Under the pieces are notes generated by a model that was given only the letters and a program-made list of their open reading frames with translations, did no database searches and had not been told where the DNA came from. Source: a virus. Taken from it: 35,640 nt of DNA. Where the stretch lies: positions 1 through 35,640 of IMG/VR virus record IMGVR_UViG_3300049728_000067; one strand, 5' to 3'. Below are positions 3,070 through 23,478 of the stretch, piece after piece. Both the position numbers and the translations under genes were made by a program. Position 1 is the first letter of the stretch; every line of letters begins with the position of its first letter.

Positions 3070-3244
3070 CTTGAAGATCTGCGAGGGCTGTGGATGCCTC
3101 TGGTATCGCGGCCAGGAAGACAAGGGCGTCTATTGCAAAGCCTGCGAGACCAAGCTGGCCGATTTCCCTACCCCTGAAAGCCGCAAGCGCCGCGGGCGCC
3201 CATCCCGCAAACAGAAGATGTTCCGTGATGAGGTAGCAGCGTGA
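3053..3244 (+). CDS. Small zinc-ribbon protein (63 aa)
   Basis: This is a 63-residue protein with two CxxC knuckles, CEGC near residue 9 and CKAC near residue 29, separated by about 17 residues. That is the spacing of a small zinc ribbon. A very basic tail, RKRRGRPSRKQK, follows and suggests nucleic acid contact. The ATG at 3053 follows GGGGG at 3042-3046 and overlaps the preceding gene by 17 bases. Its stop overlaps the GTG start of the next gene. Function is unknown; a DNA- or RNA-binding role is inferred from the zinc ribbon and basic tail. Confidence 0.65.
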   Translation: MESRVDLKICEGCGCLWYRGQEDKGVYCKACETKLADFPTPESRKRRGRPSRKQKMFRDEVAA

Positions 3245-4031: not shown

Positions 4032-5183
4032 ATGGAAGCAGTTTTGGAAAAGACGGAAGTAGAATCCGCTCCGATGAAAGCGGCGATCAGTCTGGTTCAT
4101 CTGCAACACGCGCTCAAGGTTGTGGAACCGGCAATCCCGCGCGGCAATGCAACGATCCCGGTGTTGCAATCGGTACGCATCGAGCAGTTGCCCGAGGGCC
4201 TGGCCATCGAGACCACCGACCTCACCCTCGCGATTCGCGCGTTGTGTCCGGAGACAAGCGGATTGCCGCGCCCGGTTGTGATCCCGGCAGACAGGTTCCT
4301 GAGTTGGGTAAAGCTATTGGCCGGCGACGATGTGAAACTCAGCGCCACGGACCGCCGCGCGACGATGCACTGCGGACGCACGAAGGCCACGCTGCCGATT
4401 CTCACGGCCTCGGCATGGCCCGATAACCGCATCTTCAAACTAGACAACGAAGGCATCACGCTCAAGCAGGGCGACCTGGCCCGCGCTCTGCGCTTCGCCT
4501 CGATCACGGTTGGAACCGAAGAGCGGTACGCGCTGAACGGTGTGCTCCTGATGGGCGACGGCACGACGTTGCGGATGGTCTCGACAGACGGCCATTGCAT
4601 GACGATCTATGCGATGCCATGCACAGAGAAGATCACGCTGCTCTTGCCGGCGCGGCTTATCAAGGCTCTGTTGCCGCTGTTGGTTGGCGACAATGACGGC
4701 ATTGACCTGGCCTTCAATGAATCGATGATCCTGGCCAGCGTGGCCGCGGATACGCCGGTGTTTGTTTCATGCCGCAAGATCACCGGGGCCTTTCCAAGCT
4801 GGGAGCAAGTGTTGCCGAAAGAGAAGCGCCTCGAAGTGAGCGCCAGTGTGCGCGACTTCCTGTTGAGCCTTGAGCGTTGCGTGTTGTTGAGCAATGCGGA
4901 GACCTCGGCGGTTGCGGTGACCTTCGGCGAACAGATCGTGATCGAGAGTTCCGATCCCCAGGCCGGCGAAGCTACAGAAACGGTGGATTGCGTCGGATCA
5001 CCGAAAGAGCCTCTGCGCGTGGGCGTGAATGCCGGTTACCTGATCCAACTGCTCAAGCGCCTGGAAGGTGACGTGCGCATTGCTCTGCCGGAGACGAACC
5101 AATCCCCGCTTCTCTTCAAAGCCACGCCGAAGGACGGCGAAACGCTGGATTACATTGTGATGCCGTTGCGGCTGGAGAAGTGA
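4032..5183 (+). CDS. dnaN-like: DNA polymerase III beta subunit-like sliding clamp
   Basis: This 383-residue protein has the length and signatures of a complete bacterial-type sliding clamp, a ring that encircles DNA and tethers polymerase and repair proteins. Visible landmarks are the N-terminal domain strand GNATIPVLQSVRIE; VSTDGHCMTIY near residue 188, equivalent to the clamp TDGHRLA signature; GAFPSWEQVLPKE near 255; and the C-terminal YIVMPLRL, equivalent to YVIMPMR. An AAAGG lies 5' of the ATG. It is the second clamp-related gene in the early region. No DNA polymerase is encoded in the window, so it may act with host polymerase III or compete with the host clamp. Confidence 0.92.
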   Translation: MEAVLEKTEVESAPMKAAISLVHLQHALKVVEPAIPRGNATIPVLQSVRIEQLPEGLAIETTDLTLAIRALCPETSGLPRPVVIPADRFLSWVKLLAGDDVKLSATDRRATMHCGRTKATLPILTASAWPDNRIFKLDNEGITLKQGDLARALRFASITVGTEERYALNGVLLMGDGTTLRMVSTDGHCMTIYAMPCTEKITLLLPARLIKALLPLLVGDNDGIDLAFNESMILASVAADTPVFVSCRKITGAFPSWEQVLPKEKRLEVSASVRDFLLSLERCVLLSNAETSAVAVTFGEQIVIESSDPQAGEATETVDCVGSPKEPLRVGVNAGYLIQLLKRLEGDVRIALPETNQSPLLFKATPKDGETLDYIVMPLRLEK

Positions 5184-7978: not shown

Positions 7979-8926
7979 ATGGGTGAAGTAACAAAAATTG
8001 CGTGGTGCGATCACACGTTCAACGCATGGATCGGCTGTGAACATGCCTCGCCGGGGTGTTTGCATTGCTACGCCGAAGCGCAAAACAAGCTGTGGAACTG
8101 GACCGGCGGCGGCTGGGGCGTGAATGCGCCGCGGCGGGTGACGAGCGATTCCAACTGGGCGAAGTTGAGGGCATGGGACCGCAAGGCAGAACGCGCGGGC
8201 GTGATGCGGCGGGTGTTCGTCAACTCGCTGTCAGACACGTTCGATGTGAAAGCGCCTATCGGTGCGCGGGAACGGCTTTGGAAAGAGATCGAAGCCTGCA
8301 CACATCTGGAGTTTCTATTGCTCACCAAAAGGCCAGAGAACTGGAAGGCCATGCTGCCTGGCTCGTGGCGTGAGAAGTGGCCGGCGCGTGTGCGGTTGGG
8401 ATTCACCGCCGAGGATCAGCAACGGTTCGATGAGCGGTTCAAGTTTGCCGCCGAACTGTTGGGACTGTGCCGGGAGATCACTCCGTTCTTTTTGAGTTGC
8501 GAGCCGATGCTCGGGACGATTGACCTGCGCGATACGGAGCGGTGGCTGTTGGGTTGGGTGATCTGCGGCGGCGAGAGCACACCGCTGGCGCGTCCGATGC
8601 ACCCGGATTGGGCGCGGCGACTGCGGGATCAATGCGCGGATGCAGGTATCCCGTTTCTATTCAAACAATGGGGCGAGTGGGCTCCGAAAACCATTTGCCA
8701 CATTCTCAAGCCTGAGTACGCCGGCAAGCTGATTCAGATGGTCACTTCCGTTTCAAGCAACCGCGAAGACGAAGGCCAGATCAGCTATTGGGCGTATCCA
8801 TCGGAGATCAAAGAGCAGGACTTCGGCCCGCTCGACCGCATGATGCGCGTGGGCAAAGAGAAACCCGAGCCGCTGTTGGATGGGCGCGAGTGGATGGAGT
8901 TTCCGGGGGTCAAGGTCAATGGGTAA
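7979..8926 (+). CDS. DUF5131 (Gp37/Gp68 family) protein
   Basis: This 315-residue protein belongs by motif to the phage Gp37/Gp68 (DUF5131) family. The start KIAWCDHTFNAWIGCEHASPGCLHCYAE is diagnostic and carries cysteines spaced CxxxxxxCxxC, resembling a radical-SAM-type iron-sulfur site. Later blocks VFVNSLSDTFD, FLLLTKRPENW, FLSCEPMLGTIDL, WVICGGESTPLARPMHPDWARRLRDQC and FLFKQWGEW also fit. The reaction has not, to my knowledge, been defined. The family often sits beside DNA-modification genes, and here it overlaps a cytosine methyltransferase gene by eight bases. A nucleic-acid modification role is an inference from context. Confidence 0.88.
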   Translation: MGEVTKIAWCDHTFNAWIGCEHASPGCLHCYAEAQNKLWNWTGGGWGVNAPRRVTSDSNWAKLRAWDRKAERAGVMRRVFVNSLSDTFDVKAPIGARERLWKEIEACTHLEFLLLTKRPENWKAMLPGSWREKWPARVRLGFTAEDQQRFDERFKFAAELLGLCREITPFFLSCEPMLGTIDLRDTERWLLGWVICGGESTPLARPMHPDWARRLRDQCADAGIPFLFKQWGEWAPKTICHILKPEYAGKLIQMVTSVSSNREDEGQISYWAYPSEIKEQDFGPLDRMMRVGKEKPEPLLDGREWMEFPGVKVNG

Positions 8927-10436
8927 GTCTCGAACGATCATGGCGGCAGACTTGTTCTGTGGCGCCGGCGGAACTTCGCAAGGGATGCTCATGGCTGCGA
9001 ACCGAATCAATGCGGACCTTCATTTGCTTGCGATCAACCATTGGCAGGTTGCCATCGACACACACTCGCTCAACCATCCCGAGGCGCAGAATCTCTGCAC
9101 GGGCGTGGATGTGGTTGACCCGCTCAAGTTGGTTACCGGCGGCCGGTTGGACATTCTCTGCGCTTCGCCGGAATGCACTCACCACTCGGTTGCGCGCGGT
9201 GGAAGGCCCTGCAACGATCAGAGCCGCGCTTCCGCCTGGCACATCCTGCGCTGGGCACAGGTGCTTTACATCGATAACCTCATCATCGAAAACGTGCCTG
9301 AGTTCCAAAGCTGGGGACCATTGGGCGCGAACGGAAGGCCAATGAAATCGAAGCGCGGCGAACTCTTTCAGCAGTTCGTGGCAAGTCTCAAAGCGTTGGG
9401 ATACAAGGCGGAATATCGCGTGTTGAATTGCGCAGACTATGGCGCGCCCACCACGCGGCGGCGTTTTTTTCTGATTGCCAGGCGCGGCAACAAAAAGATC
9501 GTGTGGCCAGAGCCGACGCATGTGCGGCCTGCGGCGAAAGGCGGTTCGTTGCCGATGTTCGCCGAAACGCGAAAGCCCTGGAAGACAGCGCGAGAGATCA
9601 TCAACTGGAAACTGCCTTCGCGCTCGATCTTTGGACGCAAAAAGCCGTTGGCTGAAAAGACGCTTCGCCGCATCGAAGCCGGACTGCGGAAGTTTTGCGG
9701 GATCGATGCTGATCTGAGCAAGTGCGTTGCCGAAGATCTGCGACCGTTCCTGGTAGTGTTCCGCAATAATCAGGACGCTGTATCGATTGACGGCCCGGTG
9801 CCGACGTTGACAACGATGGGCGCGAATGTGGAACCGTTCATCATGCCGCATCCGCGAGAGCATGACCAGCCGCACAGCATCGACGCGCCGATCCGGACTG
9901 TGACCGCATCTTCCTGCGATCTATCCCTGGTTGAACCGTTCCTGATGCCTATCGATCATTCGGGGAGTGGAACCAACGCGGCGCATTCGGTCAACACTCC
10001 AGTGGGAACGCTGGTCACGAAAGAGAATCGCGCGCTCGTGACGCCGTACCTCATCACCGTCAATCACGGGGAAGGCGATACCACGAGGCGGAGTAGGTCG
10101 GTGGATGATCCTCTCGGCACGGTGACGGGAAGCATGGGAGAAGGCGTGGCCGAACCATTCCTGATTTCCTACTACGGCGTGATGGGATCGAGTGGCGCGG
10201 ATGAGCCGGTTCCAACGGTCACCACGAAGGATCGCTTTGCGGTGATCGAGGCGCGGCAAGAGAAGTACATGCTTGACATTCGATTCAGGATGTTGCAACC
10301 GCGCGAACTGGCCAGGGCGCAGGGATTCCCCGATACTTACGAATTCACGGGCAACCGCGAGGCGGTGGTCAAACAGATCGGGAACGCTGTGCCACCGCCG
10401 ATGGCCGCGGCGCTGGTTGGGGCTGTGATCGGATAA
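8919..10436 (+). CDS. DNA C5-cytosine methyltransferase, with repeated target-recognition segment
   Basis: This is a 505-residue protein. Motif I (SAM binding) is DLFCGAGGTSQG at residues 11-22. The catalytic loop reads CASPECTHHS with Cys86, where most family members have GPPCQ; this EC variant recurs in phage enzymes. Motif VI is IENVPEF and motif VIII is TTRRRFFLIARR. Near the C-terminus RELARAQGFPDTYEF and KQIGNAVPPPMA match motifs IX and X. Between VIII and IX, residues about 276-445 contain five imperfect repeats of 30-37 residues, unusual for a target-recognition domain. It would methylate cytosine, likely protecting phage DNA from restriction. The ATG at 8919 was chosen; an upstream in-frame start lies inside the DUF5131 gene. 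Confidence 0.9.
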   Translation: MGKSRTIMAADLFCGAGGTSQGMLMAANRINADLHLLAINHWQVAIDTHSLNHPEAQNLCTGVDVVDPLKLVTGGRLDILCASPECTHHSVARGGRPCNDQSRASAWHILRWAQVLYIDNLIIENVPEFQSWGPLGANGRPMKSKRGELFQQFVASLKALGYKAEYRVLNCADYGAPTTRRRFFLIARRGNKKIVWPEPTHVRPAAKGGSLPMFAETRKPWKTAREIINWKLPSRSIFGRKKPLAEKTLRRIEAGLRKFCGIDADLSKCVAEDLRPFLVVFRNNQDAVSIDGPVPTLTTMGANVEPFIMPHPREHDQPHSIDAPIRTVTASSCDLSLVEPFLMPIDHSGSGTNAAHSVNTPVGTLVTKENRALVTPYLITVNHGEGDTTRRSRSVDDPLGTVTGSMGEGVAEPFLISYYGVMGSSGADEPVPTVTTKDRFAVIEARQEKYMLDIRFRMLQPRELARAQGFPDTYEFTGNREAVVKQIGNAVPPPMAAALVGAVIG

Positions 10437-15403: not shown

Positions 15404-16910
15404 ATCGCTCGATCTCAGGGAAGCCCGCGCCACCGTTGCGGCCAAAGCTCCCAGCGTAGCGCGGCGCAACTTTGCCGCCGCCCAGGTTGGCCGTCTCACC
15501 TTCGATTGGGCAACCTCCATCCTATCGCGCGACCAGAAACTGTGGACCGATCTCCGCAAACTCCGTTCCCGCGCCCGCGAACTGGCTGACAACGATCCCA
15601 CTGCGGCAAAGTTCCTTTCGCTCTGTGTCGCCAACGTCATCGGCAAGCACGGCGTCACCATGCAGCCCAAAGTGCAAAACCTGCGCGGCGGCAAGCTGGC
15701 CGATACACTCAACGCTCAAATCAAGGCCGAGTGGAAGCTCTGGCGTCAAAAGGGAAATTGCACCCTTGACGGCAAACTCAGCTTTGACGAACTCGAACGG
15801 CTCCTCATCCGCACCGCCGCCATGGACGGCGAATTCCTCGTGATTCAAAAGGTGGTCAACAACCCCTGGGGATTCGCGCTGCAGCACATGGATATGGATC
15901 AGCTTGACCACACATTCTTCCTCGAACAGACCACCATCGGAACTGAAATCCGTATGGGCGTCGAGGTTGACAAGTTCCGCAAGCCGGTCGCTTATCATCT
16001 CTGGAATCGCCACCCGAATGAATGGACCTCGCGGCCCATGGATCGTGTGCGCGTTCCCGCCAACATCGTCTGCCACGCCTATCTTCCCGATTCAGCCCTG
16101 CAAACCCGCGGCGTTCCGTGGATGGCCCCGGCCATGTTCCAGATGAACATGCTCAAGGGCTACATGGAAGCCGAGATCATTGCCGCCCGCGTGGGCGCCT
16201 GCCAGATGGGCATCATCTCAGACGATAAGGGCAGCGGCGAATACAAGGGCGAGGGTATCAATGAAGACGGCACAATCAACATGGAAGCCACGCCTGGCGG
16301 CTTCCTTCAAATCGGCGCCAACAAGTTTGACACCTTCAAGCCCGAGCATCCCAACACCGCCTTCGGTAACTTCGTCAAGGAAGTCAAGCGCGGTATCGCG
16401 TCGAGCCTCGGCGTCTCCTACAACTCGCTTGCCGAAGATCTGGAGAACGTCAACTTCTCTTCCATCCGCGCCGGCCTGTTGAACGAGCGCGATATGTGGC
16501 GCGTCCGCCAGCGTTGGATGATCGAGGTATTTCACAAGCCCGTATTCCGCGCCTGGCTAGCCTCGGCTGTTCTTGCGGGCCGCATCGATCTCAGTGTGCG
16601 CGACGAAGACGAAGTGGCCGAGCAATGCCACTGGCATCCGCGCGGCTGGCCGTGGGTCGATCCCGTCAAGGATCAGCAGTCCAACGCCCTCGGCGTACAA
16701 AACGGCTTCACCACACGCCAGCGCCTGTTGGGTGAGCAAGGCTACGACCTTGAAGACACTCTCGCCGAACTCGCAGCCGAAGAGGCGCTGATTCAAAAGT
16801 ACGGCCTCAAGCTGGGCACCGATGCCAAGGGCGTGGCCGATGCGCCCGAAGATGCCAAAGAAGGCGACCAGACCAAAGCCACCGGATCATCCAAGGGCGG
16901 CTCGGCCTAA
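15393..16910 (+). CDS. Portal protein (lambda gpB family)
   Basis: This is a 505-residue portal, the ring at the capsid vertex through which DNA passes. Typical blocks are LRSRARELADNDPTAAKFLS, IKAEWKLWRQKGNCTLDG, HMDMDQLDH, VPANIVCHAYLPD, RGVPWMAPAMFQMNMLKGYMEAEIIAARVGA (read in two pieces), FVKEVKRGIASSLGVSYNSL and NFSSIRAGLLNERDMWRVRQ. The C-terminus is acidic and lysine-rich, the likely disordered end. The ATG at 15393 overlaps the upstream stop by 11 bases. Lambda order would put the protease next; instead a cargo cassette intervenes. Confidence 0.92.
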   Translation: MAIESLDLREARATVAAKAPSVARRNFAAAQVGRLTFDWATSILSRDQKLWTDLRKLRSRARELADNDPTAAKFLSLCVANVIGKHGVTMQPKVQNLRGGKLADTLNAQIKAEWKLWRQKGNCTLDGKLSFDELERLLIRTAAMDGEFLVIQKVVNNPWGFALQHMDMDQLDHTFFLEQTTIGTEIRMGVEVDKFRKPVAYHLWNRHPNEWTSRPMDRVRVPANIVCHAYLPDSALQTRGVPWMAPAMFQMNMLKGYMEAEIIAARVGACQMGIISDDKGSGEYKGEGINEDGTINMEATPGGFLQIGANKFDTFKPEHPNTAFGNFVKEVKRGIASSLGVSYNSLAEDLENVNFSSIRAGLLNERDMWRVRQRWMIEVFHKPVFRAWLASAVLAGRIDLSVRDEDEVAEQCHWHPRGWPWVDPVKDQQSNALGVQNGFTTRQRLLGEQGYDLEDTLAELAAEEALIQKYGLKLGTDAKGVADAPEDAKEGDQTKATGSSKGGSA

Positions 16911-16929
16911 CCACGAACAAAGGAGACCC

Positions 16930-17793
16930 ATGAAACTGATTCGCATTGTCCTCATCACCCTCACGATGCTCTGCCTCTACGCATCGCTTCCCGCGCAAAC
17001 CGTCACCGTCACCGCGCATTACCTGTCCGATTCGGCGGGCAACCCGGTCACCGGAATCCTGCATTGGCAACCCACTCTCGCCAATGGAACCCCGGCCTCA
17101 TACCGCGTCGGCAGCGGAGGCACGGTTACTTCTCTCCCGGTTCAGGTCAACGTCCGCGCGGGCGCATTCACGCTCACCATCGCCGATACCTCGCTCACAA
17201 GCCCGGCCAATATCTGTTTCAAGGTCACGCTCTCCACCGTGGCCAATACCTCGGCGCTCGGTCCCGGTTACAACTGCGTTCAGCCTCACAGCGTGGCCGT
17301 AGGGTCTACCGATTGGTGCCAGGCCGGCGTCTGTAACTTCGATGACTACACGCCCAACCTGCCCGCGCTTCCCATCGCTTACGTCTCTCCCGATCTCATG
17401 ACCGCATGGGACGTGCAGGCCGCGTCCTACATCGGCGCGGGCAATACCATCACCCAGGCCACGCTCTCTGACGCCGCCACGGTTACGTTCAACACCGCCG
17501 GTTCCATGATGAGCGTGGCCACATTGCCCTTGAATGGAACCGTCGCCACCCGCACCATCAACGTCACCGGCCTCGTGACCGGCGCGCGCTTCGGCATTCT
17601 CATCAACCCGCAGAACTCCATGACTGTGCAGGTTGCGCAGACGGTCAACTTCGGCTCGGGTTGCACCTGGAACTTCGCGCCCGGCGCGGTGACCAGCGGG
17701 AACGCTCTCAACATCCCGCCATGGACGAACTGGAGTTACTTCGCCTACTTCGTCTACGACGGAACCAACTGCATCGGCATGGTGTTGGATTGA
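16930..17793 (+). CDS. Secreted beta-rich protein of unknown function
   Basis: This is a 287-residue protein with a textbook Sec signal peptide: MKLIRIVLITLTMLCLYASLPAQ, basic start, hydrophobic core, cleavage probably after PA near residue 22. The mature part is rich in Thr, Val and Gly, with short beta repeats (TVTVTAHYLSDSAGNPVTG, and ATRTINVTGLVTGARFGIL) and about six cysteines that could form disulfides outside the cytoplasm. AAAGGAGA gives a strong ribosome-binding site, which fixes this start over an in-frame upstream codon inside the portal gene. A signal peptide is unusual for a structural gene. It may be a lysogenic-conversion protein or a receptor-related protein. Confidence 0.75.
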   Translation: MKLIRIVLITLTMLCLYASLPAQTVTVTAHYLSDSAGNPVTGILHWQPTLANGTPASYRVGSGGTVTSLPVQVNVRAGAFTLTIADTSLTSPANICFKVTLSTVANTSALGPGYNCVQPHSVAVGSTDWCQAGVCNFDDYTPNLPALPIAYVSPDLMTAWDVQAASYIGAGNTITQATLSDAATVTFNTAGSMMSVATLPLNGTVATRTINVTGLVTGARFGILINPQNSMTVQVAQTVNFGSGCTWNFAPGAVTSGNALNIPPWTNWSYFAYFVYDGTNCIGMVLD

Positions 17794-18477
17794 ACCATTA
17801 CTACCAACACGGCGGTATCACCATCTATTGCGGAGATTGCAGAGACGTGTTAGGGGGGGGGCAACGTCTCTACAGACTTGCTCCTCACCGATCCTCCGTA
17901 TGGAATCGGCATGGGCCGCAAAGCCCAGCGTCAAGGCCAAGGCGTCAAGTGTCACATGACCGGCCTTGTCAAAGGCAAAGCCGTTCTGCCGCGCGATTAC
18001 GGAGACTACGCCTGGGATGATGCGCCGCCCGACGATGAACTGATCTCTCTGATTCGCTCCTGTTCTGCTCATCAAATCATCTTCGGCGGAAACTACTTCG
18101 CCCTGCCGTCCTCGAAGTGCTGGCTGGTGTGGGACAAGCTCCGCGGCGATACCGACTTTGCCGACTGTGAGCTTGCATGGACGAACCTCGATAAGAGCGT
18201 CCGCCGCATTGCGTATAGGTGGAACGGATTTCTGGTTGAGCCAGGAAGTAAGGATGTGCGAACCCATCCCACGCAAAAGCCTATCGACGTAATGAAGTGG
18301 GCCATCCGTCAGGCGCCGGTAACTTGCCGCTCGGTCCTCGATCCCTTCATGGGCAGCGGCACAACCCTCGAAGCCGCGAAAGCGCTGGGCCTCTCCGCAA
18401 TCGGTATCGAGCGCGAAGAGAAGTATTGCGAGATTGCCGCCCGGCGCCTGCAGCAAGAGGTTATGTCTTTTGCCTGA
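17790..18477 (+). CDS. DNA adenine/cytosine-N4 methyltransferase (beta class), frameshifted at a G9 tract
   Basis: The opening frame starts at TTG 17790 (overlapping the previous stop) and reads NHYYQHGGITIYCGDCRDVLGGG, a typical methyltransferase N-terminus. After nine consecutive G at 17853-17861 the homologous reading moves to another frame: LLLTDPPYGIGMG (catalytic DPPY), then LVWDKLRG, THPTQKPIDVMKWAI and the SAM motif LDPFMGSGTTLEAAK. DPPY before the SAM motif marks the beta class. With eight Gs the two halves would join perfectly (GGG GGG GGC AAC). As written, the downstream part could only start at internal TTG 17878. This is phase variation, mutation or sequence error. Confidence 0.85.
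17853..17861 (+). repeat. G9 homopolymer, candidate phase-variation tract
   Basis: A run of nine G sits inside the methyltransferase codons for the Gly that precede the DPPY motif. Loss of one G restores the full reading frame. Such tracts change length by slipped-strand mispairing. Confidence 0.8.
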
Positions 18478-18510: not shown

Positions 18511-18539
18511 AAAAAGCCCGCTCAATTTGCGGGCTTTTT
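18511..18539 (+). terminator. Strong rho-independent terminator after the cargo cassette
   Basis: AAAAAGCCCGC (18511-18521) and GCGGGCTTTTT (18529-18539) form a perfect 11-base stem with a seven-base loop and T tail. The stem is symmetric enough to act on both strands. It separates the cassette from the protease-capsid gene. Confidence 0.92.
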
Positions 18540-18562
18540 CCGTTCCGGCGCAACGTCAAGTT

Positions 18563-20617
18563 ATGAGCACCGAAAAGAAAATCCCCTCGTCTCTGCCGAT
18601 CCTTCATCGGGCGGCCACGGTCGAGAGTGTGGATGCTGAGAAACGCACCGTGACTTTCGCGTTGACCTCTGAGCAGCCCGTCGAGCGCTGGTGGGGCAGT
18701 GAGATTCTTGACCACTCTCCCAAGTCCGTCCGGCAGGACCGCCTCAAGCGCGGCATTCCTCTGCTCTTCGGCCACTCCACCGATCAGCACATTGGCCGCA
18801 TCGAGAGTTACGGAATCAAGGACGGCAAGCTCAACGTCACCGCCCGCTTCGGTAACTCCGCCCTGGCCGAAGAGAAGTTCCGCGACGTGCAAGACGGGAT
18901 TCTCGTGGATGCCTCGGGCGGCTACATCATCCACGAATACGAGCTTGTCAAGAGCGATGACAAGGGTAACTCGACTTACCGGATCACCGATTGGGAGCCG
19001 GTCGAGGGTTCTCTTGTTCCCATCCCCGCCGATCCCACCGTGGGCATTGGCCGCGAGTTGGCCGCCGGTACGCCGGTCTATCCCGCGCGCTGCCTCGGCG
19101 GTAAGCGTGACGACAACAAGTGCGAGTGCGATTGCCCCGAATGTGAAGACGGCAATTGCGCGGACTGCAGCGACGAAGACTGCGATGACGAAAACTGCCG
19201 CTGTGCAGCGTCTCGCGCTCTGCCAACCATAACCAACAAACCGGCTCAGGCCGCAATCGAGGAGAGAAGCATGGCTGCTGAAAATGTGCCCTCCGCTGGT
19301 ACGCCGGCGGTTGAGGTAGGCAATAACACCGGGATTCTGGCCGAGCGCGCCCGCGTCAACGAAATCAACGCCCTCGCGTCACGCTATCCCAAGCAGATCA
19401 CCCGTGAGCAGGCGGAGAAGTTCGTCAACGAAGGCGCCGGGGCCGACGCGGTGCGCCGCCACGTCCTCGATGTGCAGGTTGCCGATGCCAAGGCCAACGA
19501 AGTTCGCAACCTCAACATTGCCGGACTCTCTGACAGCGAGAAGGAAAACTACTCCATCCTGCGCGCGCTCAACACCGCTGCCGAGGGCGGCAACTGCTTC
19601 GAGTTGGAAGTAAGCCAGGACCTCAGCCGCAAGCTCGGACGCACCGCCCGCCGCGACGGTTTCTTCGTCCCCATGGATGTAAAGATGCGGCTCTCCGACA
19701 ATGAGCGCCAGCAGAACGCGCGGGGCATGTACGGCATGAGCCAGCGCGCCGGCCTCGACGCAAACACCGCTGGCAACGGCCTCAACACCATCTTTACCGA
19801 GTACGTATCCCTTATCGAGTTGCTCCGCAACAAGATGATGGTGCGGGCGCTCGGCGCGACGGTTCTTTCGGGCCTGTCCGAAACCATCGCATTCCCCAAG
19901 CAGGCGTCCGCCGGAACCGCAACCTGGGTGGCCGATAACCCCGGCGCCGACGTTGCCGATTCCAACCTCACCTTCGCGCAGATCACTATGACTCCCAAGC
20001 TCCTGCAGAGTTCCACGAGCTTCTCCCGCAAGCTGCTCTTGCAGTCTTCGGTAGATGTGGAAGCATTGGTCCGCAATGACCTGATGCAGATTGTCGCCCG
20101 CGCCATTGACCTGGCGGCTATCGCGGGAACCGGAGCGGCCAACCAGCCCAAGGGGATTCTCAATCAGGTTGGCATCGGCTCTGTGGCCACCGGAGGCACG
20201 GCGCTGACTTACGCCTCGTTCGTTCTCCAGGAGACGCAGGTCGCCGCGGCCAACGCCGACATTGGCACCATGGCCTATCTCACCACGGCGGGAATGCGCG
20301 GCAAGCTCAAGCAGGTTGCCAAGCTGGCCAACACCCTCGCACTGCCGGTATGGAACGACGGCGAAGTCAACGGATACCGCGCCGAGGTTTCCAACCAGAT
20401 GCCTATCGTCGGTTCCGCGCCTGCCCTTCACTCCTGCCTCTTCGGCGTGTGGAATCAGTTGCTCATCGGCGAGTGGGGCGCGCTCGAAGTCATCGTTGAC
20501 CCGTATCGCCTGAAAAAGCAGGGCATGATCGAAGTCACCACGTTCGACACCTGCGACGTGAACGTCCGTCACCCCGAGAGCTTCTCGGCCATCACCGACG
20601 CCAATCCTCTCCTGTAA
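18563..20617 (+). CDS. Prohead protease fused to HK97-type major capsid protein
   Basis: This is a 684-residue fusion. Residues about 1-180 are an S78-type prohead protease: IPLLFGHSTDQHIGRIE supplies the catalytic His and GILVDASGGYIIHEYE the Ser region. Residues about 187-214 form an acidic linker with nine cysteines (CECDCPECEDGNC, ADCSDEDCDDENCRC). From residue 237 follows a scaffold-like delta domain (ERARVNEINALASRYP...) and then the HK97 capsid fold: LEVSQDLSRKLGR, LIELLRNKMMVRALGATVLSG, TMTPKLLQSSTSFSRKLLLQ, GTGAANQPKGILN and VIVDPYRLKKQGMIEV. The ATG at 18563 is the first start after the terminator. A strong internal start at 19271 could make capsid alone. Confidence 0.93.
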   Translation: MSTEKKIPSSLPILHRAATVESVDAEKRTVTFALTSEQPVERWWGSEILDHSPKSVRQDRLKRGIPLLFGHSTDQHIGRIESYGIKDGKLNVTARFGNSALAEEKFRDVQDGILVDASGGYIIHEYELVKSDDKGNSTYRITDWEPVEGSLVPIPADPTVGIGRELAAGTPVYPARCLGGKRDDNKCECDCPECEDGNCADCSDEDCDDENCRCAASRALPTITNKPAQAAIEERSMAAENVPSAGTPAVEVGNNTGILAERARVNEINALASRYPKQITREQAEKFVNEGAGADAVRRHVLDVQVADAKANEVRNLNIAGLSDSEKENYSILRALNTAAEGGNCFELEVSQDLSRKLGRTARRDGFFVPMDVKMRLSDNERQQNARGMYGMSQRAGLDANTAGNGLNTIFTEYVSLIELLRNKMMVRALGATVLSGLSETIAFPKQASAGTATWVADNPGADVADSNLTFAQITMTPKLLQSSTSFSRKLLLQSSVDVEALVRNDLMQIVARAIDLAAIAGTGAANQPKGILNQVGIGSVATGGTALTYASFVLQETQVAAANADIGTMAYLTTAGMRGKLKQVAKLANTLALPVWNDGEVNGYRAEVSNQMPIVGSAPALHSCLFGVWNQLLIGEWGALEVIVDPYRLKKQGMIEVTTFDTCDVNVRHPESFSAITDANPLL
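19259..19273 (+). promoter_or_regulatory. Internal ribosome-binding site for a capsid-only product
   Basis: GAGGAG at 19259-19264 lies six bases before ATG 19271, in frame within the protease-capsid ORF and just after the cysteine-rich linker. Spacing and strength are better than at many gene starts in this window. Confidence 0.7.
19271..20617 (+). CDS. Nested in-frame major capsid protein (predicted internal start)
   Basis: Translation from ATG 19271 would give a 448-residue protein starting MAAENVPSAGTPAVEVG. It contains the delta/scaffold-like segment and the complete HK97-fold capsid domain but no protease. Many capsid copies but few protease copies are needed per head, so independent initiation would set the ratio. 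Lambda C/Nu3 is a known precedent for nested in-frame head genes. The evidence is the Shine-Dalgarno sequence and the domain boundary. The alternative is that only the fusion is made and is cut by the protease itself. Confidence 0.6.
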   Translation: MAAENVPSAGTPAVEVGNNTGILAERARVNEINALASRYPKQITREQAEKFVNEGAGADAVRRHVLDVQVADAKANEVRNLNIAGLSDSEKENYSILRALNTAAEGGNCFELEVSQDLSRKLGRTARRDGFFVPMDVKMRLSDNERQQNARGMYGMSQRAGLDANTAGNGLNTIFTEYVSLIELLRNKMMVRALGATVLSGLSETIAFPKQASAGTATWVADNPGADVADSNLTFAQITMTPKLLQSSTSFSRKLLLQSSVDVEALVRNDLMQIVARAIDLAAIAGTGAANQPKGILNQVGIGSVATGGTALTYASFVLQETQVAAANADIGTMAYLTTAGMRGKLKQVAKLANTLALPVWNDGEVNGYRAEVSNQMPIVGSAPALHSCLFGVWNQLLIGEWGALEVIVDPYRLKKQGMIEVTTFDTCDVNVRHPESFSAITDANPLL

Positions 20618-22336: not shown

Positions 22337-22765
22337 ATGCCCGTCATCACTCCCATTAAGTTGCAGGGATACAAAGCCCAGTTGGGCTACATGAATGTGA
22401 CCCTCCAGATCGTCGCGGGCCTCAAGGAAGTGGATGGAGCTTTCAAGGCCGAGGAACTGGACTCCACCGATCACGGCGGCTCGGGATGGAAAAACCGCAT
22501 GGCCGGTCTGCTCGACTTCGAGGGCACCGCCAAGCTCGATTACATCGCGGGCGATACCTCGCAGGAGTATCTGCTCAATGCAATTCTCAACCGGACCCCG
22601 CTGGCCATCACCCTTTTTCCGTTCCAGGGCACCGGCTCGGGCGTCGATTCCTACAACGGCTCGGTCATCATCACCGACTTCAAGTGGGACGGCAAGAACA
22701 ACGATCTCCAGGGCGTAAGTATCTCGCTCAAGGGAGCCGGCGCTTTCACCTTCACCGCGCAGTAA
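22337..22765 (+). CDS. Tail-tube protein, short paralogue
   Basis: This 142-residue protein would polymerise into the tail tube. Recognisable parts are KLQGYKAQLGY at the start, then GLKEVDGAFKAEELDSTDHGG, MAGLLDFEGTAKLDYIAG, and the end DGKNNDLQGVSISLKGAGAF. A strong GGAGG ribosome-binding site precedes the ATG. The next gene is a near copy with an added internal domain, so the two probably arose by tandem duplication. The short form is likely the tube core; which form is more abundant in particles is unknown. Confidence 0.8.
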   Translation: MPVITPIKLQGYKAQLGYMNVTLQIVAGLKEVDGAFKAEELDSTDHGGSGWKNRMAGLLDFEGTAKLDYIAGDTSQEYLLNAILNRTPLAITLFPFQGTGSGVDSYNGSVIITDFKWDGKNNDLQGVSISLKGAGAFTFTAQ

Positions 22766-22774
22766 GGAGACACT

Positions 22775-23428
22775 GTGACCCCGACGAAACTGCAAGGCTA
22801 CAAAGCGCAGCTTGGCTATGCCGCCGCCAACGTGGCCATCACCGCCGCAACCAACGCCAACCCCACCGTGCTCACCATTGCCGGTGTGGGTACTGGCTTG
22901 TCGGCAGGCAATCTTGTCCTGCTCGTCATCACCGGCTTTACCGGATCGTGGACGCCGCTGAACGGTGTGCAGGTCACCGGAACCATCGTCTCCAATAACA
23001 CCTGTTCGGTAGCCGTCAACGCCACCGCCTTCGGAGCCATCACCGGAACGCCCCTGGCCGCGATTATGACCACCGTCGCGGGCCTCAAGGAACTCGACGG
23101 CGCATTCAAGGCCGAAGAGTTGGACGCCACCGATCACGGCGGCGGCGGATGGAAGAGCCGTATGCCCGGCCTGCTCGACTTCGAGTCCACCGCGAAGCTC
23201 GATTACATCGCGGGCGACACGACTCAGGAGTATCTGCTCGGCGCAATCCTCTCTCGAACCGCGTTGACCATCACGCTCTTCCCGCAGCAGGTTGACACGT
23301 CCGGCTGTGACTCCTATGTCGGCTCCGTCATCATGACCGACTTCAAGTGGGACGGAAAGAACAACGACCTGCAGGGCGTCAGTATCTCGCTCAAGGGCGC
23401 AGGCGCGTTCTCCGTCGTCACGCAATAA
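22775..23428 (+). CDS. Tail-tube protein, long paralogue with inserted domain
   Basis: This is a 217-residue protein with the same framework as its neighbour: KLQGYKAQLGY, GLKELDGAFKAEELDATDHGG and DGKNNDLQGVSISLKGAGAF. It carries an insertion of about 75 residues at 16-90. The insert (NPTVLTIAGVGTGLSAGNLV, then LNGVQVTGTIVSNNTCSVAV) has the short-strand style of small beta domains repeated in phage surface proteins. It may decorate the tube exterior, like the extra C-terminal domain of lambda V. The GTG start follows AAGGAG by six bases. The terminator at 23479 follows it. Confidence 0.8.
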   Translation: MTPTKLQGYKAQLGYAAANVAITAATNANPTVLTIAGVGTGLSAGNLVLLVITGFTGSWTPLNGVQVTGTIVSNNTCSVAVNATAFGAITGTPLAAIMTTVAGLKELDGAFKAEELDATDHGGGGWKSRMPGLLDFESTAKLDYIAGDTTQEYLLGAILSRTALTITLFPQQVDTSGCDSYVGSVIMTDFKWDGKNNDLQGVSISLKGAGAFSVVTQ

Positions 23429-23478
23429 GATTTTGGGCGCTGCCGTGTTCATTGCCTTCGCGCGGCAGCTTTGAGGGA

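Follow-up and report, generated by a model that had tools for sequence, protein, structure and literature searches.

Background

Poly-G phase variation of a phage gene has been shown for the receptor-binding proteins of Campylobacter Fletchervirus (Sorensen et al. 2021, Cell Rep 35:109214, as described in PMC11868660 and PMC11959909). In bacteria, phase-variable methyltransferases are well known and comprise Type III Mod, M.NgoAV and the Type IIG enzyme of C. jejuni (PMC13076061, PMC4889913, PMC9577141). Moreover, the flow of methyltransferase genes of phages has been documented in Bacteroides prophages (PMC10333322). Our literature search, with many subscription papers outside its reach, retrieved no report of a poly-G phase-variable phage methyltransferase.

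The sequence analysed here is an entire IMG/VR record of a virus, namely a 35,640-base linear fragment (hereafter the window), in which the frame of a DNA methyltransferase gene is broken at a run of nine Gs. From the comparison of related sequences, we consider it likely that this orphan N6-adenine methyltransferase undergoes slipped-strand phase variation under poly-G contingency control, the window copy being OFF. The initial annotation of the window had proposed such a phase-variable methyltransferase, and its proposal is supported by the G8 and G9 alleles of the gene's own subfamily, by purifying selection and by near-clonal phages elsewhere that differ only at the tract.

Organisation of the methyltransferase locus

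The methyltransferase gene spans positions 17790..18477 on the plus strand, as do the other features of this locus. Its TTG start (17790) overlaps the TGA of the upstream gene, an ORF of 323 aa (16822..17793) without any Pfam or PHROG match, and this start-stop overlap suggests that the two genes are translationally coupled. The frame opened by the TTG reads LNHYYQHGGITIYCGDCRDVLGGG and is then lost at a G9 homopolymer (17853..17861), the predicted slipped-strand switch, before reaching a stop at 18020. Every other single-base run of the window is shorter than this tract. Starting at 17854, a second frame stays open over 207 aa, reads GGGNVSTDLLLTDPPYG... and stops at 18477 (17854..18477). The split exactly at nine Gs described in the initial annotation, with the remainder open to 18477, was thus confirmed. 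Both frames would make up a single protein if the tract had eight Gs, and this is taken as the real junction because intact relatives carry exactly eight Gs there, in frame (ON). In the light of these relatives, the earlier proposal that one G fewer joins the two halves holds; the part of it that joined the N-terminus directly onto LLLTDPPYG does not, as the residues NVSTD are found between GGG and this segment. The locus has the layout of a phase-variable gene, with a mononucleotide tract of about 7 units or more inside the coding region, where a change of one unit shifts the frame.

The prohead protease-major capsid fusion found downstream (18527..20617) places the gene in the context of the head module. 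A terminator-like hairpin, AAAAA-GCCCGC-TCAATTT-GCGGGC-TTTTT (18511..18539), was found by eye just 3' of the methyltransferase gene and was absent from the output of the hairpin scan. No cognate restriction gene was present at the two flanking genes, i.e. the 323-aa ORF and the protease-capsid fusion. Elsewhere in the window, a second methyltransferase gene, encoding an intact and tract-free C5 cytosine enzyme, overlaps a DUF5131 gene (8880-10436 and 7979-8926, respectively). The window also encodes a DNA polymerase III beta clamp (4032-5183), and its segments 22411-22766 and 23074-23429 are about 80% identical, probably as the result of the duplication of a gene segment.

The occurrence of nine consecutive Gs was compared with random expectation. 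After dinucleotide shuffling of the window, G9 was present in 23 of 100 sequences (0.36 expected per shuffle), and 252 of 1000 synonymous-codon shuffles contained a G/C run of at least 9. These frequencies led us to reject the rarity of G9 as evidence by itself. G9 alone not being significant, the case rests on the relatives at the same position: it is the coincidence of the G9 with the frame break, together with its recurrence at the same site in homologues, that is significant.

Identification of a beta-class N6-adenine methyltransferase

By its motif order, its match to PF01555 and its modelled fold, the window gene is a beta-class N6-adenine DNA methyltransferase, with a predicted activity. 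The catalytic motif IV, DPPYG (17890..17904), is located N-terminal to motif I, the SAM-binding DPFMGSGTT (18340..18366), and both motifs are invariant or nearly so, in that order, in our alignment A1. The second frame matches PF01555 (1.4e-19), and the profile built from relatives of the window gene matches DpnA/M1.HpyAVI, CcrM, MboIIA and RsrI. The AlphaFold model of an intact G8 relative, L010 (mean pLDDT 79.8), matches CcrM (6pbd, E 2.7e-09) and M1.HpyAVI (5hfj). In this model the tract encodes a loop between a helix (residues 17-22) and a strand (residues 30-33), DPPYG being located at 34-38; the same loop is gap-rich and variable in length in the alignment.

The DNA of the window gene had no similarity match among deposited phages. 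The tract was absent from the related methyltransferases of the deposited AcaML1, Latilactobacillus, Nostoc, Porphyromonas, Gordonia and Ruminococcus phages; the AcaML1 records differ from one another by lengths of one and two bases, but elsewhere than at the tract site. The closest cellular homologues share 35-59% identity and are spread across several phyla.

Tract alleles in the subfamily of the window gene

Aligned with related phages, the check put forward in the initial annotation, the gene was found with G8 and in frame in five more distant contigs (L009, L010, L017, L018 and L228); the window, L002, L003 and L227 have G9 and a broken frame. L002 is 99.99% identical to the window over 7.4 kb, and L003, which comes from another metagenome, is 96.9% identical over 10.6 kb; the near-identical relatives found thus all carry G9, with no ON sibling among them. 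L227 groups with the G8 alleles, from which it differs at 64-68 of 689 positions, yet its tract is G9 and its frame is lost; apart from this additional G, the gene has the same length. Other relatives are all in frame, with an A plus G7 in L011-L014, with G9 after a different codon in L007 and L164, and with no tract in L005 and L008 (both GAGGAGGGC) nor in L004. Degraded relatives devoid of a tract, the picture that the initial annotation had set against a switch, were not seen, the tract-less homologues being in frame. Across these sequences, the same site holds both in-frame and out-of-frame tract alleles, the latter in two lineages.

Homopolymers being error-prone, the true tract of the window could be G8 and its gene intact, the ninth G resulting from sequencing or assembly. 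We consider this very unlikely: G9 was recovered not only in separate assemblies, L002 and L003, but also in L227, a distinct lineage, and other contigs were called as G8.

The position of the gene varies between these phages. In L004 and L007 it stands immediately ahead of the large terminase gene, and in the window ahead of the capsid gene, which gives it the look of a movable cassette.

Selection on the broken gene

The frameshift could also be a one-off event in a dispensable gene, now a permanent pseudogene. G9 is shared by the window, L002 and L003, as such an event would predict, and a block of 162 bp around the tract (window 17788-17949) is identical between the window and L003 within a divergent stretch. 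Because of this identical block, the G9 of both may be one recent event, spread by exchange. The comparison of the window with L003, both out of frame, yielded 29 synonymous and 6 nonsynonymous changes downstream of the break, corresponding to an omega of 0.055, and a ratio above 2 in both of the other frames. Between the same two phages, omega was 0.087 for the neighbouring ORF and 0.121 for the capsid gene. Similarly, L227 compared with the G8 alleles exhibited an omega of 0.045 downstream of the tract, without any stop. Since the out-of-frame alleles are under purifying selection (omega of about 0.05), at a level comparable to that of the surrounding structural genes, this is not a decaying pseudogene; moreover, the same break is found again in L227. 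The pseudogene reading was rejected on these two omega values and we regard it as extremely improbable. As judged from the substitution pattern, the methyltransferase gene is one that was functional in its recent history, and its OFF allele is kept by selection, as in phase-variable genes.

Purifying selection across the break of the G9 alleles would be equally expected if slippage of the RNA polymerase or of the ribosome at the G tract yielded some full-length enzyme at any tract length. Such recoding is the main rival to phase variation. It predicts a programmed site with one fixed offset, and we judge it unlikely in view of the offsets and tract lengths found in other phages.

Tracts before motif IV in other phages

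Viral contigs were scanned for runs of G7 or more located 12-40 nt before the DPPYG codons. At least 120 stretches were retrieved, and a second scan added more. At least 120 viral contigs thus bear a tract before motif IV, the distinct downstream sequences numbering at least 124. The initial view that a G-tract methyltransferase switch is unusual in a phage late region had to be corrected, such an arrangement not being unusual among phages. Most of the matches listed are ParB-like/methyltransferase fusions, the others being stand-alone enzymes. Among the matches listed, tract lengths range from G7 to G13, and the 120 scored gene versions comprise 67 in frame and 53 out of frame (37 with an offset of 2 and 16 with an offset of 1). 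The offset is therefore not fixed, which counts against recoding. Some ParB-type methyltransferase genes bear a G tract at a different place: those of L234-L236 (L234, near 2095) are in frame, and that of L262 (L262:701) is out of frame.

A tract-blind set was also built, in which relatives were picked by the part of the protein located downstream of the tract. The gene was out of frame in none of the 32 tract-less cases and in 6 of the 19 scorable tract-bearing ones (Fisher p 0.0015), the query coming from a tract-bearing gene and some loci being interrelated. Because of this choice of query, the frequency of tracts in the set is not representative; the contrast between tract-bearing and tract-less genes stands despite the query and the interrelated loci. 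The lack of frameshifts in tract-less homologues also speaks against sequencing error.

Near-clonal phages differing at the tract

Tract lengths were compared between closely related phages, as read from assembled contigs. L188, L192 and L196, three separate IMG/VR records more than 99.9% identical across 6-8 kb, carry G8, G9 and G10, respectively, in phages whose gene layout is the same. Between L188 and L192 there are 0 mismatches over 7,847 columns, and the methyltransferase tract is the sole indel; L196 exhibits one further G, plus two mismatches at its contig end. In these three records a second G9 tract, inside an adjacent C5 methyltransferase gene, and all the other homopolymers agree, so that the methyltransferase tract alone varies, a pattern at odds with sequencing error. 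General homopolymer error, against which the initial annotation had argued mildly, was rejected on this constant second tract and on the tract-less controls. Of two prophages that come, judging by their record numbers, from isolate genomes, L190 carries G9 and is out of frame, and L194 carries G10 and is in frame; they are identical over the next 150 nt downstream. Recoding is further disfavoured by such differences in genomic tract length between near-clonal phages.

Tracts in other genes

G tracts were also found in other genes. A C5 cytosine methyltransferase gene (~1045-2380) of L007, which is related to the window phage, is broken at G10, with PF00145 matched on both sides. In L285-L287, a C5 methyltransferase gene located beside the N6 gene carries G9 and is in frame (L285:4813), and its homologue in L288 carries G8 and is out of frame (L288:1631). 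Finally, a PAPS-reductase-domain gene is split by a G tract in L289, L290 and L291 (G10, G11 and G9, respectively; tracts near 3100 and 3845). Over 8.6 kb, L289 and L290 differ only at the tract of this gene and at one further G tract. The two tracts change by an equal amount in each of the three contigs, possibly a sign of a dataset effect, and this case was therefore treated with care.

Proposed switching mechanism

The tract encodes a glycine loop that links the N-terminal helix to the strand entering motif IV, a place at which differences in length are tolerated by the family. During replication, the tract would gain or lose one G at a time through slipped-strand mispairing. The full-length enzyme would then be made from G8 (or G5, G11), and G9 or G10 would yield a short peptide without activity. 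In the window, the predicted OFF product is a translation of 76 aa (17790..18020) without the central region, presumably inactive because it also lacks motif IV and motif I; the second part (17854..18477), in the ON frame, is the one under purifying selection. Low-level slippage could still provide some enzyme from G9 in the OFF state. Late, coupled translation may lead to the modification of DNA around packaging. Random switching would be a form of bet-hedging of phage DNA modification, its likely benefit being that methylated progeny evade ordinary restriction enzymes and unmethylated progeny evade methyl-dependent (Type IV) restriction. A reversible switch may thereby diversify the methylation of the phage or of its lysogens, a consequence put forward in the initial annotation. 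We infer from the alleles of relatives that switching is reversible in the window phage; the inactivity of its OFF state and a restriction-related benefit are inferred as well.

On a broader scale, we lean towards poly-G switching of DNA-modification genes being a widespread and convergent strategy of phages. Unrelated N6 methyltransferases would have acquired the tract several times over, always in the loop that precedes motif IV; C5 methyltransferase and other genes would have gained tracts too, and populations would hedge their modification state against opposing restriction systems. If so, one burst or one lysogen population could mix modified and unmodified genomes, and overcome methyl-dependent restriction as well as the ordinary kind. 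Many of the phage methyltransferase genes listed with a frameshift in the databases would then be in an OFF state, not dead, and phage phase variation would extend beyond receptor binding to DNA modification.

Comparison with known systems

With CcrM, M1.HpyAVI, MboIIA and RsrI, the window enzyme shares the order of motifs (IV then I), the fold and the PF01555 match; it differs from them by an identity of only about 20% and by its G tract, which lies in the loop preceding motif IV. Poly-G tracts have reportedly also been found in many phage genera (Sorensen et al. 2021, Cell Rep). The likeness to the Fletchervirus system is that a hypermutable G tract within the coding sequence acts as the switch of a gene carried by a phage. 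The switched gene is a receptor-binding protein in Fletchervirus, whereas the tract-bearing gene of the window is a DNA methyltransferase; in other phages, C5 methyltransferase and PAPS-reductase-domain genes bear such tracts. With Type III Mod, M.NgoAV and the Type IIG enzymes, the locus has in common the ON/OFF control of a methyltransferase through a change of repeat length and a frameshift. Those enzymes belong to bacterial restriction-modification loci, whereas the window enzyme is an orphan located in the head-gene region of a phage, without a neighbouring restriction gene.
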